The position numbers were made by a program, and so were the translations under genes. The notes under the pieces were generated by a model. It saw only the letters and a program-made list of their open reading frames with translations, was not told the DNA's origin and ran no database searches. A stretch of DNA of 22,715 nt from a virus: the IMG/VR virus record IMGVR_UViG_3300044729_002026, positions 1-22,715 of that record. One strand, written 5' to 3'. Every line of letters begins with the position of its first letter. The first letter of the stretch is position 1. Positions 2,659-16,531 of the stretch are shown here, piece after piece.

Positions 2659-2835
2659 TCAGACGGCGCGCTCGGCAATGGCGTCGAGGATGGCGTCGGC
2701 CCATCCTGCGAAATACCAGCCGGTCTGGTTGGTGTTGGGCAGGACGCCGTAAGCGTGCACCTCACCGTTACGGGCGATGCGGACGCGCTCGGCGTCAACG
2801 TGGGCGATAATGGCGGCGCGGTTGGTCTTGGTCAT
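2659..2835 (-). CDS. Small hypothetical protein, 58 aa, first gene of the leftward block
   Basis: Leftward frame of 58 codons, ATG at 2835, stop at 2661-2659. GGAG sits just before the start inside the shared leader element. The frame can be extended upstream into the repeat-rich intergenic DNA, but that part has low-complexity composition and lacks a ribosome site, so the ATG at 2835 is preferred. The product (MTKTNRAAIIAHVDAERVRI...) has a basic N-terminus, a beta-like centre (NGEVHAYGVLPN) and an aromatic C-terminal helix (WYFAGWADAILDAI). It heads a four-gene operon (58, 57, 82, 59 residues) under promoter copy 4. Function unknown. Confidence 0.7.
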   Translation of the reverse strand: MTKTNRAAIIAHVDAERVRIARNGEVHAYGVLPNTNQTGWYFAGWADAILDAIAERAV

Positions 2836-2868
2836 TGGGTGTCTCCGGTTGGTCGTTGTTGATGCCCC

Positions 2869-2897
2869 CTTGTACGGGCCACAGACCCAACAGTCAA
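2869..2897 (-). promoter_or_regulatory. Early promoter, divergent fourth copy
   Basis: Leftward promoter before the 58-residue gene: -35 TTGACT (2897-2892), 17-base gap, -10 TACAAG (2874-2869). The gap holds an imperfect form of the palindrome (GGGTC-N3-GGCCC, 2888-2876). The second, leader palindrome of copies 1-3 is absent, and the distance to the start codon is shorter (62 against 76-77 bases). It reads as a diverged member of the same cassette. Confidence 0.55.
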
Positions 2898-2959
2898 CAG
2901 CAAAGTTGAGTGCTGCTGCATTAAAATTGTGTAACGAGGGAGGGTCAACACTGCGGTTG

Positions 2960-3205
2960 TCACCACGCACCACCATGCACCGTGGTGCACCGTGGTGCAG
3001 TGGTGCGGCAGGCGCAGCATGCACCACGGTGGGGGGACACCCCTTTAGGGGTGCCCCTCGTGGTGCACCGAGCCGTGGTGGTGGTGTGGTGTAATTTTTG
3101 GCGGTGCGGTGTGCTGACTCGAGACCTCACTGCGACACGCTCGCGCACCGCGGTGCGTCGTGGTGCAGTGGTGCGCGGTGTTGACGGTGCGCGGTGCGGT
3201 GCTGT
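2960..3205. repeat. GGTGC/GCACC iteron-like cluster
   Basis: By eye, about 19 copies of GGTGC or its complement GCACC fall in roughly 240 bases, in both orientations. Tandem 10-base units (CACCGTGGTG) occur near 2978-2999. A 17-base exact direct repeat (CGTGGTGCAGTGGTGCG) is present at 2991-3007 and again at 3159-3175. An inverted CCGTGGTGCA lies at 3019-3028. Spacing near one helical turn suggests a protein-binding array, such as a replication origin or operator set. No DnaA-box-like sequence was seen. Confidence 0.7.
3033..3057. repeat. Inverted repeat with TTTA loop
   Basis: CACCCC-TTTA-GGGGTG (3038-3053), with flanking GGGG and CCCC that can extend the stem across a one-base bulge. No T-run follows on either strand, so it is not a normal intrinsic terminator. 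It lies in the middle of the iteron-like array and may be a cruciform or a binding site. Confidence 0.55.
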
Positions 3206-3210
3206 AGGGT
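3181..3210 (+). promoter_or_regulatory. Candidate rightward promoter of the packaging/head operon
   Basis: TTGACG (3181-3186) lies 18 bases before TAGGGT (3205-3210), or 16 bases before TGTAGG (3203-3208). The gap contains three GGTGC units of the array, so a protein bound to them would cover the promoter. The first gene begins at 3241. The -10 match is weak. Confidence 0.45.
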
Positions 3211-3240
3211 ACAACCGTAGAGTTGATGGGAGCACATCGC

Positions 3241-3540
3241 ATGACGACAGAGACGAAACCGAAGCGCAGCCGCAAGAAGCCGGTGGGTGTCAGTGCGCCG
3301 CCGCCGCCGATCAAGGCGCCCCGGGAGCCCCGCGAGATGGATACTCGCAACGCAGAGCTCGAGCACCGCCGCATGGCTGTGCGCGGCTCGCGTGACCTGC
3401 TGGCGGCGCTGGCCAGATCGGCGTTCAAGCACGGCATCGCCCTGCGCGACATGACGCCAGAGGAGCAGCTGCGCGCCGCCACGGCGGATGGGTGGCAGGG
3501 GCGCGTCATCGGCGCGTCGCGTTGGGCTGGCGGCGCGTAG
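3241..3540 (+). CDS. Hypothetical protein upstream of terminase, 99 aa
   Basis: The start is taken as ATG 3241 because GGGAG lies 8 bases upstream; an in-frame TTG at 3223 would place that ribosome site inside the gene. The protein opens with a Lys/Arg/Pro-rich tail (TETKPKRSRKKPVGV, residues 2-16). A Pro run (about 18-32) and a helical C-terminal part follow (AELEHRRMAVRGSRDLLAAL). The basic tail suggests DNA contact. It lies directly before the small terminase gene, so a role in packaging or its control is possible by position only. I do not recognise the family. Confidence 0.75.
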   Translation: MTTETKPKRSRKKPVGVSAPPPPIKAPREPREMDTRNAELEHRRMAVRGSRDLLAALARSAFKHGIALRDMTPEEQLRAATADGWQGRVIGASRWAGGA

Positions 3541-3562
3541 GGCTGTGTGGTAGGATGTGGGC

Positions 3563-4024
3563 ATGAGCGAAGAGCCTGTGAAGAAGAGCCGCAAGGGCAT
3601 TGGTGGCGCGCCGAGCAAGTATTTGCCGGAGTACTGCGAGCGCGTGATCGAGATGGGCCGCGAGGGCATGTCCATCGTCGAGATGGCGGCTGAGATCGGT
3701 GTGCATCGCGAGACGCTGGAGGAGAAGTGGGTAGAGGCGCAGCCAGAGTTCGCCGCAGCCTTCGCGCGTGCGCGCGAGCTCAGCCAAGCGTGGTGGGAGC
3801 GGCAGGGCCGGCTGGGCTTGACGGCCGACCGCTTCAACGCGCAGCTGTACAGCCGCAGCATGTCGGCGCGCTTCCCGAAGGACTGGCGCGAGACGAAGGA
3901 GCAGCGCATCGCCGGTGCGGACGGCGGCGCGATCAAGACGGAGGCGGTGGGCGCCACGCCCGACGCCATGCGCGAGCTGACCGAGGCGCTGCTGAAGCAG
4001 GCGGCCGACAAGGCGAAGGGCTGA
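3563..4024 (+). CDS. terS: Terminase small subunit (TerS), 153 aa
   Basis: Start ATG 3563 with AGG 8 bases upstream; a GTG two codons earlier is less likely. TerS recognises the packaging site on phage DNA and feeds it to the large subunit. Residues 15-58 (GGAPSKYLPEYCERVIEMG, then MSIVEMAAEIGVHRETLEEK) form a helix-turn-helix like that of other phage TerS proteins. Two helices follow (63-100), the usual oligomerisation region, with a Trp pair and FPKDW at 104-108. The C-terminus (about 134-153, AMRELTEALLKQAADKAKG) is a helix that in relatives contacts TerL. Length and position directly before terL fit. The alternative, a general DNA-binding protein, is less likely. Confidence 0.85.
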   Translation: MSEEPVKKSRKGIGGAPSKYLPEYCERVIEMGREGMSIVEMAAEIGVHRETLEEKWVEAQPEFAAAFARARELSQAWWERQGRLGLTADRFNAQLYSRSMSARFPKDWRETKEQRIAGADGGAIKTEAVGATPDAMRELTEALLKQAADKAKG

Positions 4025-4067: not shown

Positions 4068-5528
4068 GTGAGCACAGCCGCCATCCTCCCGACGCTGAAC
4101 GCGCAGCAGCAGGCGTTCGCCCTGTGGCAGCACCAGTGGGCCAACACGGCGCGCCCGAATCAGATCCCTGAGCTCGTGTCGCCGCCCGGCTTCGTCGAGA
4201 TGGGCTACCTCGCCGGTCGCGGCTTCGGCAAGACCCGCGTCGGCGCCGAGTGGCTGGGCCGCGCCACATACCTTGACGGCGCCGGCTTCGACAGCGCGGT
4301 CATCGCGCCGACCTATCAGGACGTCAAGTTCACCTGCTTCGAGGGCGAGAGCGGGTTGCTGTCCGTCATCCCGCCCGAGCTGATCAAGGCGTACAACAAG
4401 TCGGATCTCGTCATCGAGATGTACAACGTCGCCGGCGGCGTGTCGTCGATCCGCGGCTTCACGGCTGAGAAGCCCGAGCGGCTGCGCGGCCCGCAGCATA
4501 CTCGCATTTGGGCGGATGAGCTGGCGGCGTGGATATACGACGACGTCTGGGACATGGCCATGATGGGCCTGCGCCTCGGCCAGCACCCGCAGGCGCTGTG
4601 GACGACCACGCCCAAGCCCAAGGAGCTGGTGCGCAAGCTCGTGGCCAAGAAGCCGGGGCGCGTGATCGTCACCGGCTCGACGTACGACAACAAGGCGAAC
4701 CTGCCCGACAGCTTCTTCGACCAGCTGGCGCAGTACGAGGGTACGACGCTGGGCCGTCAAGAGCTATACGGCGAGCTGATCGACCCGGAAGAGAGCGGCA
4801 TCGTCAAGCGCAGCCAGTTCAGGCTGTGGGCGCACGACAAGCCGCTGCCGCGCTTCGACCTCGTGGTCATGTCGCTCGACACGGCGTTCACCGAGAAGAC
4901 CATGGACAAACGCAGCGGCGACCCCGACCCGACGGCGTGCAGCGTGTGGGGTGTGTTCTTCCACGAGAAGCGCAACAACGTCATGCTGTTGGACTGCTGG
5001 GAGGAGCACCTCGGCCTGCCCGACCTGATCCGCAAGGTGAAGAAGGAGCTGAACGTCAGCTACGGCGACGACGACGACACGGCCGTGATCAAGCCGCTGT
5101 TCGGCTCAGCCAAGCCGTTGACGTCGGGGCGCAAGCCGGACATCCTGCTGATCGAGGACAAGGGCAGCGGCATCTCGCTGCGCCAGATGCTCGAGCGCGA
5201 GGGCATCGAGGCGTACGCCTACAACCCCGGCCGCGCCGACAAGTTGACCCGTCTGCACATCGTCTCGCCGATCTTCGCACGCAGGATGGTCTGGCTGCCC
5301 GAGAGCGCCAAGCACCCCGGCCAGCCGCGCAACTGGGTCGACCCGCTGCTGCACCAGCTGTGCAGCTACACCGGGCCCGGTAGCATCAAGCATGACGACT
5401 TCGTCGATAGCGTCTCCCAGTGCTTCAGGCTGATGATGGACAAACGCCTACTGGATGCGGTACAAGCCAAAAAAGACGAGCCGTCTGGGCCCCCGCCCAA
5501 ACCGGTTAGCAATCCGTACGCTGTCTAA
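4068..5528 (+). CDS. terL: Terminase large subunit (TerL), 486 aa
   Basis: The DNA-packaging motor: an N-terminal ATPase drives DNA into the head through the portal and a C-terminal RNase H-like nuclease cuts it. Visible motifs are Walker A GRGFGKTR (residues 50-57), Walker B RIWADE (146-151), the coupling motif TTTPKP (179-184), and nuclease acids D271 (SLDTAF), E363/D364 (LIEDKGSG) and D444/D447 (HDDFVDS). The full 486 residues match the normal family size. The start is GTG 4068, 43 bases after terS, with AGGGG only three bases away and inside a hairpin, so initiation may be restricted. The C-terminus is Pro-rich (EPSGPPPKP). The call is secure from motif order and neighbours. Confidence 0.96.
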   Translation: MSTAAILPTLNAQQQAFALWQHQWANTARPNQIPELVSPPGFVEMGYLAGRGFGKTRVGAEWLGRATYLDGAGFDSAVIAPTYQDVKFTCFEGESGLLSVIPPELIKAYNKSDLVIEMYNVAGGVSSIRGFTAEKPERLRGPQHTRIWADELAAWIYDDVWDMAMMGLRLGQHPQALWTTTPKPKELVRKLVAKKPGRVIVTGSTYDNKANLPDSFFDQLAQYEGTTLGRQELYGELIDPEESGIVKRSQFRLWAHDKPLPRFDLVVMSLDTAFTEKTMDKRSGDPDPTACSVWGVFFHEKRNNVMLLDCWEEHLGLPDLIRKVKKELNVSYGDDDDTAVIKPLFGSAKPLTSGRKPDILLIEDKGSGISLRQMLEREGIEAYAYNPGRADKLTRLHIVSPIFARRMVWLPESAKHPGQPRNWVDPLLHQLCSYTGPGSIKHDDFVDSVSQCFRLMMDKRLLDAVQAKKDEPSGPPPKPVSNPYAV

Positions 5529-5537
5529 GGAGCGGGC

Positions 5538-8120
5538 ATGGAAGACGATGACGATCTGCCCGAAACCGAAATGGTTGATCTGGGCGAGGCCGACGAGGAG
5601 GACGTGATCGACACGCCCGACGGCGGCGCCATCGTCCGACTGGACGACGGTGACGACCTCGCCCCGCGCTCCGACGACTTCCTCGCCAACTTGGCCGAGG
5701 AGATGCCCGAGAGCGAGCTTCAGTCGCTGGCGCAGACGTACCTCGACCTGATCAGCAAAGACAAGGAAGCGCGCAAGAAGCGCGACGAGCAGTACGAAGA
5801 GGGCCTGCGCCGCACCGGTCTGGGCGACGACGCGCCCGGCGGCGCGCTGTTCAATGGTGCCACTAAGGTGGTGCATCCGATGCTCACCGAGGCCTGCGTC
5901 GACTTCGCCTCGCGCGCCATCAAAGAGCTGTTCCCGCCGCAGGGCCCCGTCAAAGACTTCATCCCCGGCGAGCCGGACGGCGAGAAAGTCAAGAAGGCCA
6001 AGCGCAAGACCCAGTTCATGAACTGGCAGTTGACCGTGCAGTCCAGCGAGTTCCGCGCCGAGCTGGAGCAGCTGCTCACTCAGGTGCCGCTGGGCGGCGC
6101 GCAGTACATGAAGGTGACGTGGAACGAGGCGCGCAACCGCCCCGACTTCCTGTTCGTCGCCATCGACGATCTGCACCTGCCGTTTGCCGCGACGAACTTC
6201 TACACGGCGCAGCGCAAGACGCACGTGCAGTACCTGACGGCCGTGGACTACCAGCGCCGCGTCAAGAGCGGCATGTACCGCGACGTTGACCTCGGGCCGG
6301 TCAGCATGGAGCCCGACTACAGCGTCGCCGAGAAAGCCAACAACAAGATCGAGGGCCGCGAAGAGACTTCCTACAACGAAGACGGGCTGCGCACGATCTT
6401 CGAGGTGTACACCATCGCTGCCATTGAGGGCGATGAGGCGCTGCCGTACATCATCAGCATCGACAAGCCGAGCGGCAAGGTGCTGAGCATCTACCGCAAC
6501 TGGGACGAACTGGACGAGGCGCAGGAAGAGCTGCAGTGGTTCGTCGAGTTCCCGTTCGTGCCGTGGCGCGGCGCGTACCCCATCGGCCTGCCGCACATGG
6601 TCGGCGGTCTGGCGGCCGCATCGACGGGCGCCCTGCGTGCGCTGCTCGACAGCGCGCACATCAGCAACAGCCAGACGATGCTCAAGCTTAAGGGCGGCAG
6701 CAAGGGCGGGCAGAGCCTCGAGATCCAGCCGACGCAGGTGATGGAGATCGAGGGCGGCATGGCTGCGGACGACATCCGCAAGCTGATCATGCCGCTGCCG
6801 TACAACCCACCGTCCGCGGTTCTGTTCCAGTTGCTTGGCTTCCTAATCGACGCGGGCAAGGGCGTCATCCGCACGACCATCGACGATGTGGCCGACGGCA
6901 ACCCGAACGCGCCGGTCGGCACGACGCTCGCCAAGATCGAGCAGGGCATGGTGGTGTTCAGCGCCATCCACGCGCGCCTGCACAACGCCATGGCCAAGCT
7001 GCTGGGCATCCTGCACCGCCTCAACGCCATGTACCTCGACGACGAGGACACGGATGCCGAGATGGGCGAAGAGCTGGCCACGCGCGCCGACTTCGAAGGC
7101 CCGCTCGACGTGGTGCCGGTTAGCGACCCGAACATCTTCAGCGAGGCGCAGCGCTTTGCGCAGGTGCAGGCGGTGGCGCAGCGCGCGGCGCAGATGCCGC
7201 AGCTGTACAACCAGCGCAAGGTCGAGGAGCGCATCCTTGAGACGCTCAAGATCCCCAACGCCAAGGAACTGCTCAACCCGGCGATGGAGCCGAGGGAGCA
7301 GAACGCGGTCAACGAGAACGTGGCGGCGACCATGGGCCGCGCGATTGTCGCCTTCCCCGAGCAGGACCACATCGCCCACCTCAAGACGCACCTCGCCTAC
7401 CTGATGTCGCCGGCGCTGGGCATGAGCCCGCTCATTGCGCCGGCCTTCATTCCGGCCATCCTGAACCATATCAAGGAGCACATCGCGATGTGGTACGCCG
7501 CGAGCGTGTTCGACCTCGGCACCGAGGCAACGGGCGGCGTGGATCTGGGCGACCTGCTCAAGCAGCTGAAGACCCCCGACGACAAGCGCGCCTTCGACGG
7601 CATGCTGGCCGAGGCCTCGCAGACTGTGGCACAGACGGCGGGCAGCGTGTTCGCGTCGCTGCCGCCCGTCATCCAGCAGGCGCAGCAGGTCATGCAGTCG
7701 TTCGCGCCGCAGCCGCCCGTCGACCCGAGCGTGCAGCTGGCTCAGGCGCAGCTGCAGGCGCAGGCCCAGCGTGACGCGCAGCGTGCGCAGATTGACGCCC
7801 AGCGCCTGCAGCTTACGGCCGCGCAGACCCAGCAGAAGGCGCAGATCGATGCAGCCAAGCTGCAGCAGGGCGCCGCCGCCGACCAGCAGCGCACCCAGCT
7901 CGACGTGGCGCAGATGCAGCTTGACGCGCAGCAGGAGCAGGCGCGGATTGCGCTGGCGCAGCAGGTCGAGCAGCAGGAGACAGAGCGCAAGCTGGCTGAG
8001 ATGCAGGTGCGTCAGGCGATGAACACGCAGGACAACCTGACGGCCATGGAGCTGGCGCAACTCGAAGTCGAGACGGGCGAGCGCTTCAGCGTCAGCACCG
8101 GCACCGGCATCAACCCGTAA
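5538..8120 (+). CDS. Portal protein, 860 aa
   Basis: Begins 9 bases after the terL stop with AGGAG before ATG 5538. The portal forms the ring at one capsid vertex through which DNA enters and leaves. The N-terminus (about 1-60) is very acidic. A portal-like segment follows (near residue 106, NGATKVVHPMLTEACVDFAS, then the IKELFPPQGPV region), with a long mixed alpha/beta body to about 640. The C-terminus (about 727-835) is Gln/Ala-rich with strong heptad character, like the coiled-coil barrel of P22-type portals. At 860 residues it is large, as in some podoviruses. Assignment rests on position after terL, size and these features. A portal with a fused extension is possible. Confidence 0.85.
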   Translation: MEDDDDLPETEMVDLGEADEEDVIDTPDGGAIVRLDDGDDLAPRSDDFLANLAEEMPESELQSLAQTYLDLISKDKEARKKRDEQYEEGLRRTGLGDDAPGGALFNGATKVVHPMLTEACVDFASRAIKELFPPQGPVKDFIPGEPDGEKVKKAKRKTQFMNWQLTVQSSEFRAELEQLLTQVPLGGAQYMKVTWNEARNRPDFLFVAIDDLHLPFAATNFYTAQRKTHVQYLTAVDYQRRVKSGMYRDVDLGPVSMEPDYSVAEKANNKIEGREETSYNEDGLRTIFEVYTIAAIEGDEALPYIISIDKPSGKVLSIYRNWDELDEAQEELQWFVEFPFVPWRGAYPIGLPHMVGGLAAASTGALRALLDSAHISNSQTMLKLKGGSKGGQSLEIQPTQVMEIEGGMAADDIRKLIMPLPYNPPSAVLFQLLGFLIDAGKGVIRTTIDDVADGNPNAPVGTTLAKIEQGMVVFSAIHARLHNAMAKLLGILHRLNAMYLDDEDTDAEMGEELATRADFEGPLDVVPVSDPNIFSEAQRFAQVQAVAQRAAQMPQLYNQRKVEERILETLKIPNAKELLNPAMEPREQNAVNENVAATMGRAIVAFPEQDHIAHLKTHLAYLMSPALGMSPLIAPAFIPAILNHIKEHIAMWYAASVFDLGTEATGGVDLGDLLKQLKTPDDKRAFDGMLAEASQTVAQTAGSVFASLPPVIQQAQQVMQSFAPQPPVDPSVQLAQAQLQAQAQRDAQRAQIDAQRLQLTAAQTQQKAQIDAAKLQQGAAADQQRTQLDVAQMQLDAQQEQARIALAQQVEQQETERKLAEMQVRQAMNTQDNLTAMELAQLEVETGERFSVSTGTGINP

Positions 8121-15430: not shown

Positions 15431-16281
15431 TGCCCGGCGGCTTTTCCTTCGACCTCGACGCAATGCGGGCGCGGGATGAGATCAACGACGCGCTGAGCGT
15501 CATGAAGACCGGCGCGCCGCCGATGCCACGGCTGCCGATGCCCCAGATGGGCATGCCGCAGCCACAAATGCCGCCGATGCAACCGCAAATGGCTCAAATG
15601 CGCCCTCAAATGGCTCAGATGCAGCCGCAAATGGCTCAAATGGGCGCGCAAATGGGCCAGATGCGCCCTCAAATGCCGCAAATGGGCGCTCCGTTGGGGC
15701 AAATGGGCGCTATGCGGCCGCCGATGGCGCCTCAAATGGGCCCTCCGTTGCGTTTTAAGCGCGGCGGACACGTCAGTGGCGACGATTTCGCCGTAAAGCG
15801 CGACGAATACGCCTCCGGGGGCGGTGCGTGGACGCGCAAAGAGGGCAAAAACCCTGAGGGCGGCCTAAATGCCAAGGGCCGCGCGTCTCTGCGGGCGCAG
15901 GGGCAGGACATCAAGCCGCCCGTGAGCGCAAAACAGGCTGCCAAGTCGCCCAAGTCGGCCGCGCGGCGCAAGAGCTTCTGCGCCCGGATGGGCGGCATGG
16001 AAGGCCCGATGAAGGACGAGAAGGGCCGCCCGACCCGCAAGGCGCTGGCGCTGCGCAAGTGGGACTGTAAGGCGCAGGGCGGCATGGTCGAGGGCTATGC
16101 CGAGGGCGGCGAGTCGCGCGTCAACGAGGCGGGCAACTACACCAAGCCGGGGATGCGCAAATCGCTGTTCAACTCAATCAAGGCTGGCGGCAAGGGCGGC
16201 GCACCGGGTCAGTGGTCGGCGCGCAAGGCACAGATGCTGGCGCGTGAGTACAAGGCCAAGGGCGGTGGCTACCGTGATTAA
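15430..16281 (+). CDS. Met-rich repeat protein with conserved basic C-terminal domains, 283 aa
   Basis: Starts at ATG 15430 in the TGATG overlap. Residues 31-104 consist of PQMAQM-like repeats with about one Met in every three residues. A basic middle follows (KEGKNPEGGLNAKGRASLRA at 137-156; RRKSFCARMGGM at 179-190; PTRKALALRKWDC at 201-213). The end (EAGNYTKPGMRKSLFNSIKA, then GAPGQWSARKAQMLAREYKA) resembles a domain of unknown function seen in phages, bacteria and large viruses. I recall Pfam labels DUF6321 or DUF5872 for such modules but cannot confirm which. No enzyme motif is seen. The high positive charge fits nucleic-acid binding, perhaps an internal or ejected virion protein. Confidence 0.8.
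   Translation: MPGGFSFDLDAMRARDEINDALSVMKTGAPPMPRLPMPQMGMPQPQMPPMQPQMAQMRPQMAQMQPQMAQMGAQMGQMRPQMPQMGAPLGQMGAMRPPMAPQMGPPLRFKRGGHVSGDDFAVKRDEYASGGGAWTRKEGKNPEGGLNAKGRASLRAQGQDIKPPVSAKQAAKSPKSAARRKSFCARMGGMEGPMKDEKGRPTRKALALRKWDCKAQGGMVEGYAEGGESRVNEAGNYTKPGMRKSLFNSIKAGGKGGAPGQWSARKAQMLAREYKAKGGGYRD
15548..15740 (+). repeat. In-frame repeats encoding PQMAQM units
   Basis: An imperfect array of 18-base units with the core CAAATGGCTCAAATG encodes (P/A)QM-x-QM repeats within the 283-residue gene. Unit copies differ by a few bases, which suggests expansion by slippage or unequal exchange. Confidence 0.75.
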
Positions 16282-16531
16282 GAAGCCGCAGCAGAGCCTC
16301 AAGGCGTGGACGAAGCAGGACTGGCGCACCAAGTCCGGCAAGCCGTCTACGCAGGGCCCAGAGGCGACTGGCGAGCGGTATCTGCCGGCCAAGGCGATCA
16401 AGTCGCTGTCGGTCAAGGAATACGCCGCGACCACCCGCGCAAAACGAAAGGCGACTGCCGCTGGCAAACAGTTCGCCAAGCAACCCAAGAAGGTTGCGGA
16501 AAAGACCGCCAGTTTTCGTGTGAAGGGATAA
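16274..16531 (+). CDS. Small basic conserved phage protein, 85 aa
   Basis: The start is taken as GTG 16274, which overlaps the end of the previous gene by eight bases. The frame can be extended upstream to 16097, but that part lies wholly inside the previous gene and has shadow-like composition. The protein (VIKKPQQSLKAWTKQDWRTK, read with initiator Met) is Lys/Arg-rich and has WTKQDWRTKSGKPS (residues 12-25), then GERYLPAKAIKSL (33-45), and a basic helical tail. I recognise the layout as a small protein family of unknown function in phages, bacteria and giant viruses. Function unknown; DNA binding is plausible from charge. Confidence 0.75.
   Translation: MIKKPQQSLKAWTKQDWRTKSGKPSTQGPEATGERYLPAKAIKSLSVKEYAATTRAKRKATAAGKQFAKQPKKVAEKTASFRVKG

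Follow-up and report, generated by a model that had tools for sequence, protein, structure and literature searches.

A hairpin-centred GGTGC iteron array next to terS as a probable phage replication origin

Introduction

The C-terminal domains of P4 alpha, SaPI Rep and SCCmec Cch2 bind iterons (PMC7581432, PMC4234260). In RSF1010, the iterons are bound by RepC, and RepB' primes at ssi stem-loops that are exposed by RepA (PMC4234260). pRN1 requires a stem-loop located 3' of its prim-pol-helicase gene, and the authors of the pRN1 work had noted similar phages (PMC4234260).

Here we analysed a 22.7-kb viral record, the whole of which is referred to as the window. A dense array of GGTGC/GCACC cores lies in it between a leftward gene block and terS-terL. 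As judged from sequence comparisons, this array is very probably the iteron-type replication origin of the phage, bound by its helicase-primase. An origin was one of three options offered in the initial annotation, beside an early/late switch and a packaging-initiation site, and it is this option that gained support, from covariation of the array with the helicase C-terminus and from the homologous elements that many phages carry next to helicase genes. In the open-access literature we found no description of the element and no paper on the hairpin letters (subscription journals were outside our coverage), and none of the phage records examined carries an origin annotation.

Results

A dense iteron array surrounds a hairpin between two gene blocks

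The window contains 115 exact GGTGC/GCACC cores, of which 18 are found at 2967-3202, 12 in the plus and 6 in the minus orientation. The initial annotation had estimated about 19 cores in about 240 bases; the dense array is thus real, and the exact count is one fewer. It had also proposed a comparison with shuffled sequence, which bore the enrichment out: in 2000 local dinucleotide shuffles of 2960-3205 the core count averaged 3.3 with a maximum of 9, and 18 was never reached (0/2000). When the whole window was shuffled 200 times, 246-bp stretches contained at most 8 cores, and the densest 246-bp stretch of the window outside the array holds 6. Chance or base composition as the source of the array was ruled out by the shuffles. 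The further traits described earlier were all recovered, namely cores in both orientations, their 10-bp tandem spacing, a central hairpin, and two exact copies of the 17-mer CGTGGTGCAGTGGTGCG, 168 bases apart at 2991 and 3159. The features of the region are as follows.

2920-2948, minus strand: possible leftward promoter TTGACC-17-TTTAAT, recognised by eye and oriented towards the leftward gene block
2966-3006, both orientations: left iteron cluster of GCACC/GGTGC copies with 10-bp tandem spacing, including one copy of the 17-bp repeat
3020-3067: central hairpin, DNA fold z = -2.6
3103-3107, plus strand: solitary core that lies after the hairpin and before the right cluster
3144-3174: right iteron cluster, an inverted pair and two direct copies, including the second copy of the 17-bp repeat
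3186-3202, plus strand: three promoter-proximal cores, which run through the spacer that separates TTGACG (3181-3186) from a weak TAGGGT (3205-3210), both boxes recognised by eye
3223-3540, plus strand: first rightward gene, likely ATG at 3241; no PHROG or Pfam match, not a copy of the winged helix, relatives exist
3557-4024, plus strand: terminase small subunit gene (terS), PHROG 309, E 1.8e-21; uncoupled from the array type
4068-5528, plus strand: terminase large subunit gene (terL), PHROG 38, Pfam Terminase_6N; query for relatives

The rightward genes are ordered as the small gene, terS, terL and portal, and the leftward block consists of small genes and a PAPS-reductase-like gene (1036-1806, leftward; PHROG moron-category family). 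A similar PAPS-reductase-like gene directly follows the helicase gene in Roseobacter phage CRP-831.

Two iterons in inverted orientation make up the outer stem of the hairpin, TGCACCACG/CGTGGTGCA; the inner stem is CACCCC-TTTA-GGGGTG, whose 5' arm carries a 1-nt bulge. The hairpin is not an intrinsic terminator: it is followed by no T run, and no terminator-like site was detected across 2700-3400. Its core, ACCCCTTTAGGGGT or a variant of it, recurs in window-family arrays and in unrelated phages.

The same element lies beside helicase-primase genes in many phages

The hairpin 18-mer ACACCCCTTTAGGGGTGT was found in 96 viral and 42 bacterial/archaeal genome stretches, against chance expectations, estimated from the collection size, of ~1 and ~7 stretches, respectively. 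Nearly all of these matches form the centre of an array built from a single NNNNACA-type 7-mer, for example CGGGACA, CGGTACA, GGTAACA, CCGGACA, GGGTACA, CGTGACA, CGTTACA or TGCCACA. Three archaeal contigs (L265, L266 and L268, Poseidoniales/Euryarchaeota) have the 18-mer hairpin without an iteron array, and the hairpin letters alone therefore do not identify the element.

ORF clustering, which covered the surroundings of 176 hairpins, revealed one family common to most repeat types: a protein of 650-800 aa whose gene ends ~60-120 bp before the hairpin (118 loci). These 118 loci carry 43 repeat labels, some of which are registers of one motif. The family contains AAA_25 with Toprim, with Prim-Pol and PriCT_1, or with PriCT_2, and by these domain matches it is a RepA-class helicase-primase. 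In all, the element was found in more than 100 other viral or prophage loci, nearly always just 3' of the RepA/AAA_25 helicase-primase gene and each with its own iteron. When loci were selected by the helicase only, a 7-mer occurred at least 5 times within the next 330 bp in 29 of 58 loci, compared with 1 of 246 control stretches. A helicase scan with an L272-type query gave zero matches, and no clear array of the same kind was seen in the stretches examined of G020 to G024.

The helicase 3' ends were also inspected in six named records that had been selected by the helicase, one of which (RHph_X2_25) had matched a hairpin query too. In five of them (16-3, RHph_X2_25, PB15, CRP-831 and BcepGomr), repeats surround a hairpin with the loop TTTA or TATA. 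CGTGACA occurs 16 and 15 times in Rhizobium phages RHph_X2_25 and 16-3, respectively, and the hairpin of 16-3 carries a compensated C-G to T-A change (ACTCCTTTAGGAGT). The repeats are TGAACCA in Alteromonas phage PB15, TTATACA in Roseobacter phage CRP-831 and of the GAAAAATA type in Burkholderia phage BcepGomr. The sixth record, an E. coli phage-plasmid, has AAAAGTGAG repeats.

Relatives of the window keep the site and change the core

We fetched 58 TerL relatives with the window TerL as the query; the closest named ones are Caulobacter phages KcrB, RW, RLK and GB2A at 62%. The GGTGC array is retained in L001-L004 and L006 (partly in L003), and most other relatives reaching the region have an array with another core at the same intergenic position, TGCAGCA in L055, L040, L044, L009, L031 and others, and TGCAACA in L034 and L035. 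All share one register, TGCA-C-C in the window, TGCA-G-C and TGCA-A-C, and differ by one base that is exchanged in the majority of an array's copies. In the relatives, the array occurs once. The initial annotation had made its reading depend on conservation of the region: the site is conserved, and the repeat letters are not. Most of these arrays retain the CCCC-TTTA-GGGG hairpin core or a close variant, with a C-G to T-A change in L002/L004. The CCCC/GGGG hairpin is absent from some arrays, which counts against the origin reading; in L010 and L047 a different inverted repeat takes its place.

The helicase gene is absent from the window, and the link from the window to the helicase runs via L004 and its relatives. 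The helicase was found in 14 of 16 window-family records searched. Since AAA_25 also matches cellular proteins, as it did in all 14 control genomes, this helicase assignment rests on full-length alignments. In L004, a near-identical relative of the window (98% TerL identity) with a window-type array at ~7.2-7.6 kb, the helicase gene is at contig positions 14653-16773, that is ~7 kb from the array and leftward relative to terS. No second array of the same kind lies beside the helicase gene on the L004 contig. Unlike in other phages, the array of the window family is not adjacent to the helicase gene, a point against the origin reading. In KcrB a related helicase is present, and a search for the array found none.

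Other repeats and TerL variants were observed among these genomes. KcrB (OQ137561) has dense ACCTCAG/CGCTGAG repeats at 6401-7250 (up to 18 in 350 bp) and, at 57120-59923, two nearby genes matching TerL, gp095c over its whole length and gp097c partially at 35%. Further dense arrays are AATTGGC (~17 copies) in G015 (the L057 contig) at 16051-16450 and CAACCGG (~12 copies) in G004 (the L044 contig) at 49651-49900. An insert resembling an intein (CFVAGTQVSTPTGDVPIERLQPGD...FANGVLVHN) is present in the TerL ORF of L056 (1250-3274, 674 aa), upstream of which lie 56-58-bp tandem repeats containing GCACCTAACTAGGTGC. The GGTGC-containing repeats upstream of terL in L056 belong to this separate tandem repeat and were rejected as the same element.

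A single C-terminal residue of the helicase covaries with the switched base

In the relatives selected by the helicase only, the C-termini end with RDxR(K/R)Q-X-xxRA. The residue X matches base 5 of TGCA-N-C in all 40 loci with a clear array: His goes with C (15 loci), Arg, Lys or Val with A (18) and Ser with G (7), with zero exceptions. The L004 helicase has His, as predicted from the TGCACC array. Additional family members have Thr with a TGCAGCA array (L347) and Asn with a TGCAACA array (L344); in L027, X is Asp and the array is a mixture of G and A.

A coarse partial Mantel test, run on entire domains, linked the iteron no less strongly with the AAA domain than with the C-terminus. Because this whole-domain result was not specific to the C-terminus, the test was replaced by a per-column one on 23 helicases of less than 85% identity. 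Among 292 variable columns, X was the sole perfect predictor of the base (1.403 bits, normalised 0.849; next column, 0.573). The specificity for the C-terminus comes only from this residue-level test. Nine base changes were placed on a tree of the helicase without its last 100 residues. Supported branches offered five independent pairs, and in all five the residue shifted alongside the base, a number of pairs that alone cannot reach p 0.05; in the sisters L388 (His, C) and L394 (Arg, A), both residue and base differ.

AlphaFold2 modelled the C-terminal domain with helices at 32-45, 54-64 and 76-88 and strands at 95-98 and 101-104, with a core pLDDT of ~90-95. The helicase C-terminus is thus predicted to be a winged helix (H-H-H-wing), and X, residue 79, would fall within the third (recognition) helix. 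Fold matches in the PDB include the winged-helix domains of histone H1x, MORF WH and FoxP3, none below E 0.001, and P4 alpha is absent among the matches listed. By profile, the domain matched no PDB chain significantly and no Pfam model, and homology between it and the P4 alpha origin-binding domain was not detectable.

Possible promoters flank the array

The same array could act as an operator only, at which either the winged helix of the helicase or a free-standing protein with such a fold would repress divergent promoters and time early versus late genes. Its cores overlap the gap of the possible rightward promoter and end near the possible leftward one, and stand-alone ORFs with only the winged-helix motif (RDTRRQSVVRA and similar) and no helicase adjoin the array in five relatives, with stop codons at L010:6734, L026:4988, L027:7032, L030:4550 and L047:7428. 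A strict sigma-70 scan detected neither promoter, so that of the initial claim that the array enters the -35/-10 gap of a rightward promoter, the cores between boxes picked by eye remain and the promoter itself was not recovered. In addition, most phages have the array in a short gap after the helicase gene, usually centred on a hairpin, and not in a divergent promoter region, and the protein that binds an operator need not be a replicative helicase. We therefore regard a purely regulatory site as unlikely. The protein bound there may in addition act as an early/late switch, and regulation of both flanking gene blocks by it is possible, but a switch leaves the hairpin and the link to the helicase gene unexplained. 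The stand-alone ORFs are possibly regulators or competitors of origin firing.

The array type does not follow TerS

The third option of the initial annotation, a packaging-initiation (pac/cos) site bound by TerS, would suit an array just upstream of terS and terL, and in Caulobacter phage KcrB the 2940-bp terminal repeat spans terS. In L006, TerS is 36% identical to that of the window and 72% to that of the TGCAGCA phage L055; the array is nonetheless of the window type. The TerS of L026 is 91% identical to that of the window, yet the array is different. Because these two phages uncouple TerS identity from array identity, the array type does not follow TerS, and TerS as the array binder is rejected. 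Moreover, the element sits at the helicase gene in most other phages. A packaging site is accordingly very improbable.

TerS itself seems chimeric. When window 3557-4024 was compared with L006:4655-5110 and L055:7549-8001, the last ~48 residues were 65-69% identical and the N-terminal part differed, which suggests domain swapping.

Discussion

The covariation and the position beside helicase genes argue for a replication origin. A partition or incompatibility (parS-like) site with a dedicated binding protein would share the clustered inverted short repeats and, in many phages, the adjoining replication gene, but this reading is the least credible, as the helicase is both the family common to the array types and the one that covaries with them, and no partition protein was present among the window proteins searched.

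If the array is an origin, the C-terminal winged helix of the RepA/AAA_25 helicase-primase, whose gene would lie ~7 kb to the left outside the window, may bind the GGTGC (TGCACC) iterons that flank the hairpin on either side. The bound protein would then assemble the helicase on the DNA at the hairpin-centred site and open it, and the hairpin, exposed on single strands, would probably serve as a priming or loading site as the RSF1010 ssi sites do. We infer physical binding, opening, priming and the start of replication at the array from these comparisons. The AT maxima of the region are modest (57% at 2900-2939 and 42% at 3075-3114), and no strongly AT-rich opening element stands out. The initial annotation had suggested cumulative GC skew as a check, and this shows no turn at the array. 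In five relatives the turning point of the cumulative AT skew coincides with the array or is no more than a few hundred bp away; this AT-skew minimum fits an origin and divergent transcription equally.

Beyond the window, we lean towards the view that the element represents an undescribed, widespread class of tailed-phage origins, an iteron-flanked hairpin whose letters diversify with the recognition helix of the helicase-primase according to the code H-C, R/K/V/N-A and S/T-G. The window family would have uncoupled its origin from the helicase gene and moved it to the divergent junction at terS. If so, the residue-to-base code predicts the origin sequence from the protein and sorts phages into origin-compatibility groups. 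The signature of a hairpin with iterons, usually right after a RepA-type helicase gene, would make origins recognisable in more than 100 viral and prophage loci and in phage 16-3. Covariation of one residue with one base makes origin recognition testable by exchange, and it would provide a natural series of orthogonal origin-initiator pairs.

Comparison with known systems

P4 alpha and its ori are alike in that one phage protein combines primase, helicase and a C-terminal winged helix that binds origin repeats (PMC4234260), a combination predicted for the present element. The differences here are a helicase of the RecA/RepA (AAA_25) type, which carries Toprim, Prim-Pol or PriCT modules, and a hairpin enclosed by the repeats. 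In SaPI Rep and SCCmec Cch2, the helicase C-terminal domain binds short iterons just 3' of the helicase gene (PMC7581432), as is predicted here, whereas the present element has another helicase class, far more iterons and a central hairpin, and the window-family array is ~7 kb from the helicase gene. RSF1010 oriV likewise has a RepA-class hexameric helicase, iterons and stem-loops, ssiA/ssiB, which serve for priming (PMC4234260). Its iterons are bound by a separate RepC, a task that in the present element seems to fall to a winged helix within the helicase. The pRN1 orf904 origin is similar in its prim-pol-helicase with a C-terminal winged helix and in its essential stem-loop downstream of the gene (PMC4234260), but it lacks iterons, its stem-loop is large (100 nt) and its helicase is of the SF3 class. 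The present element thus unites traits of P4 alpha/SaPI/SCC, RSF1010 and pRN1 in one arrangement.
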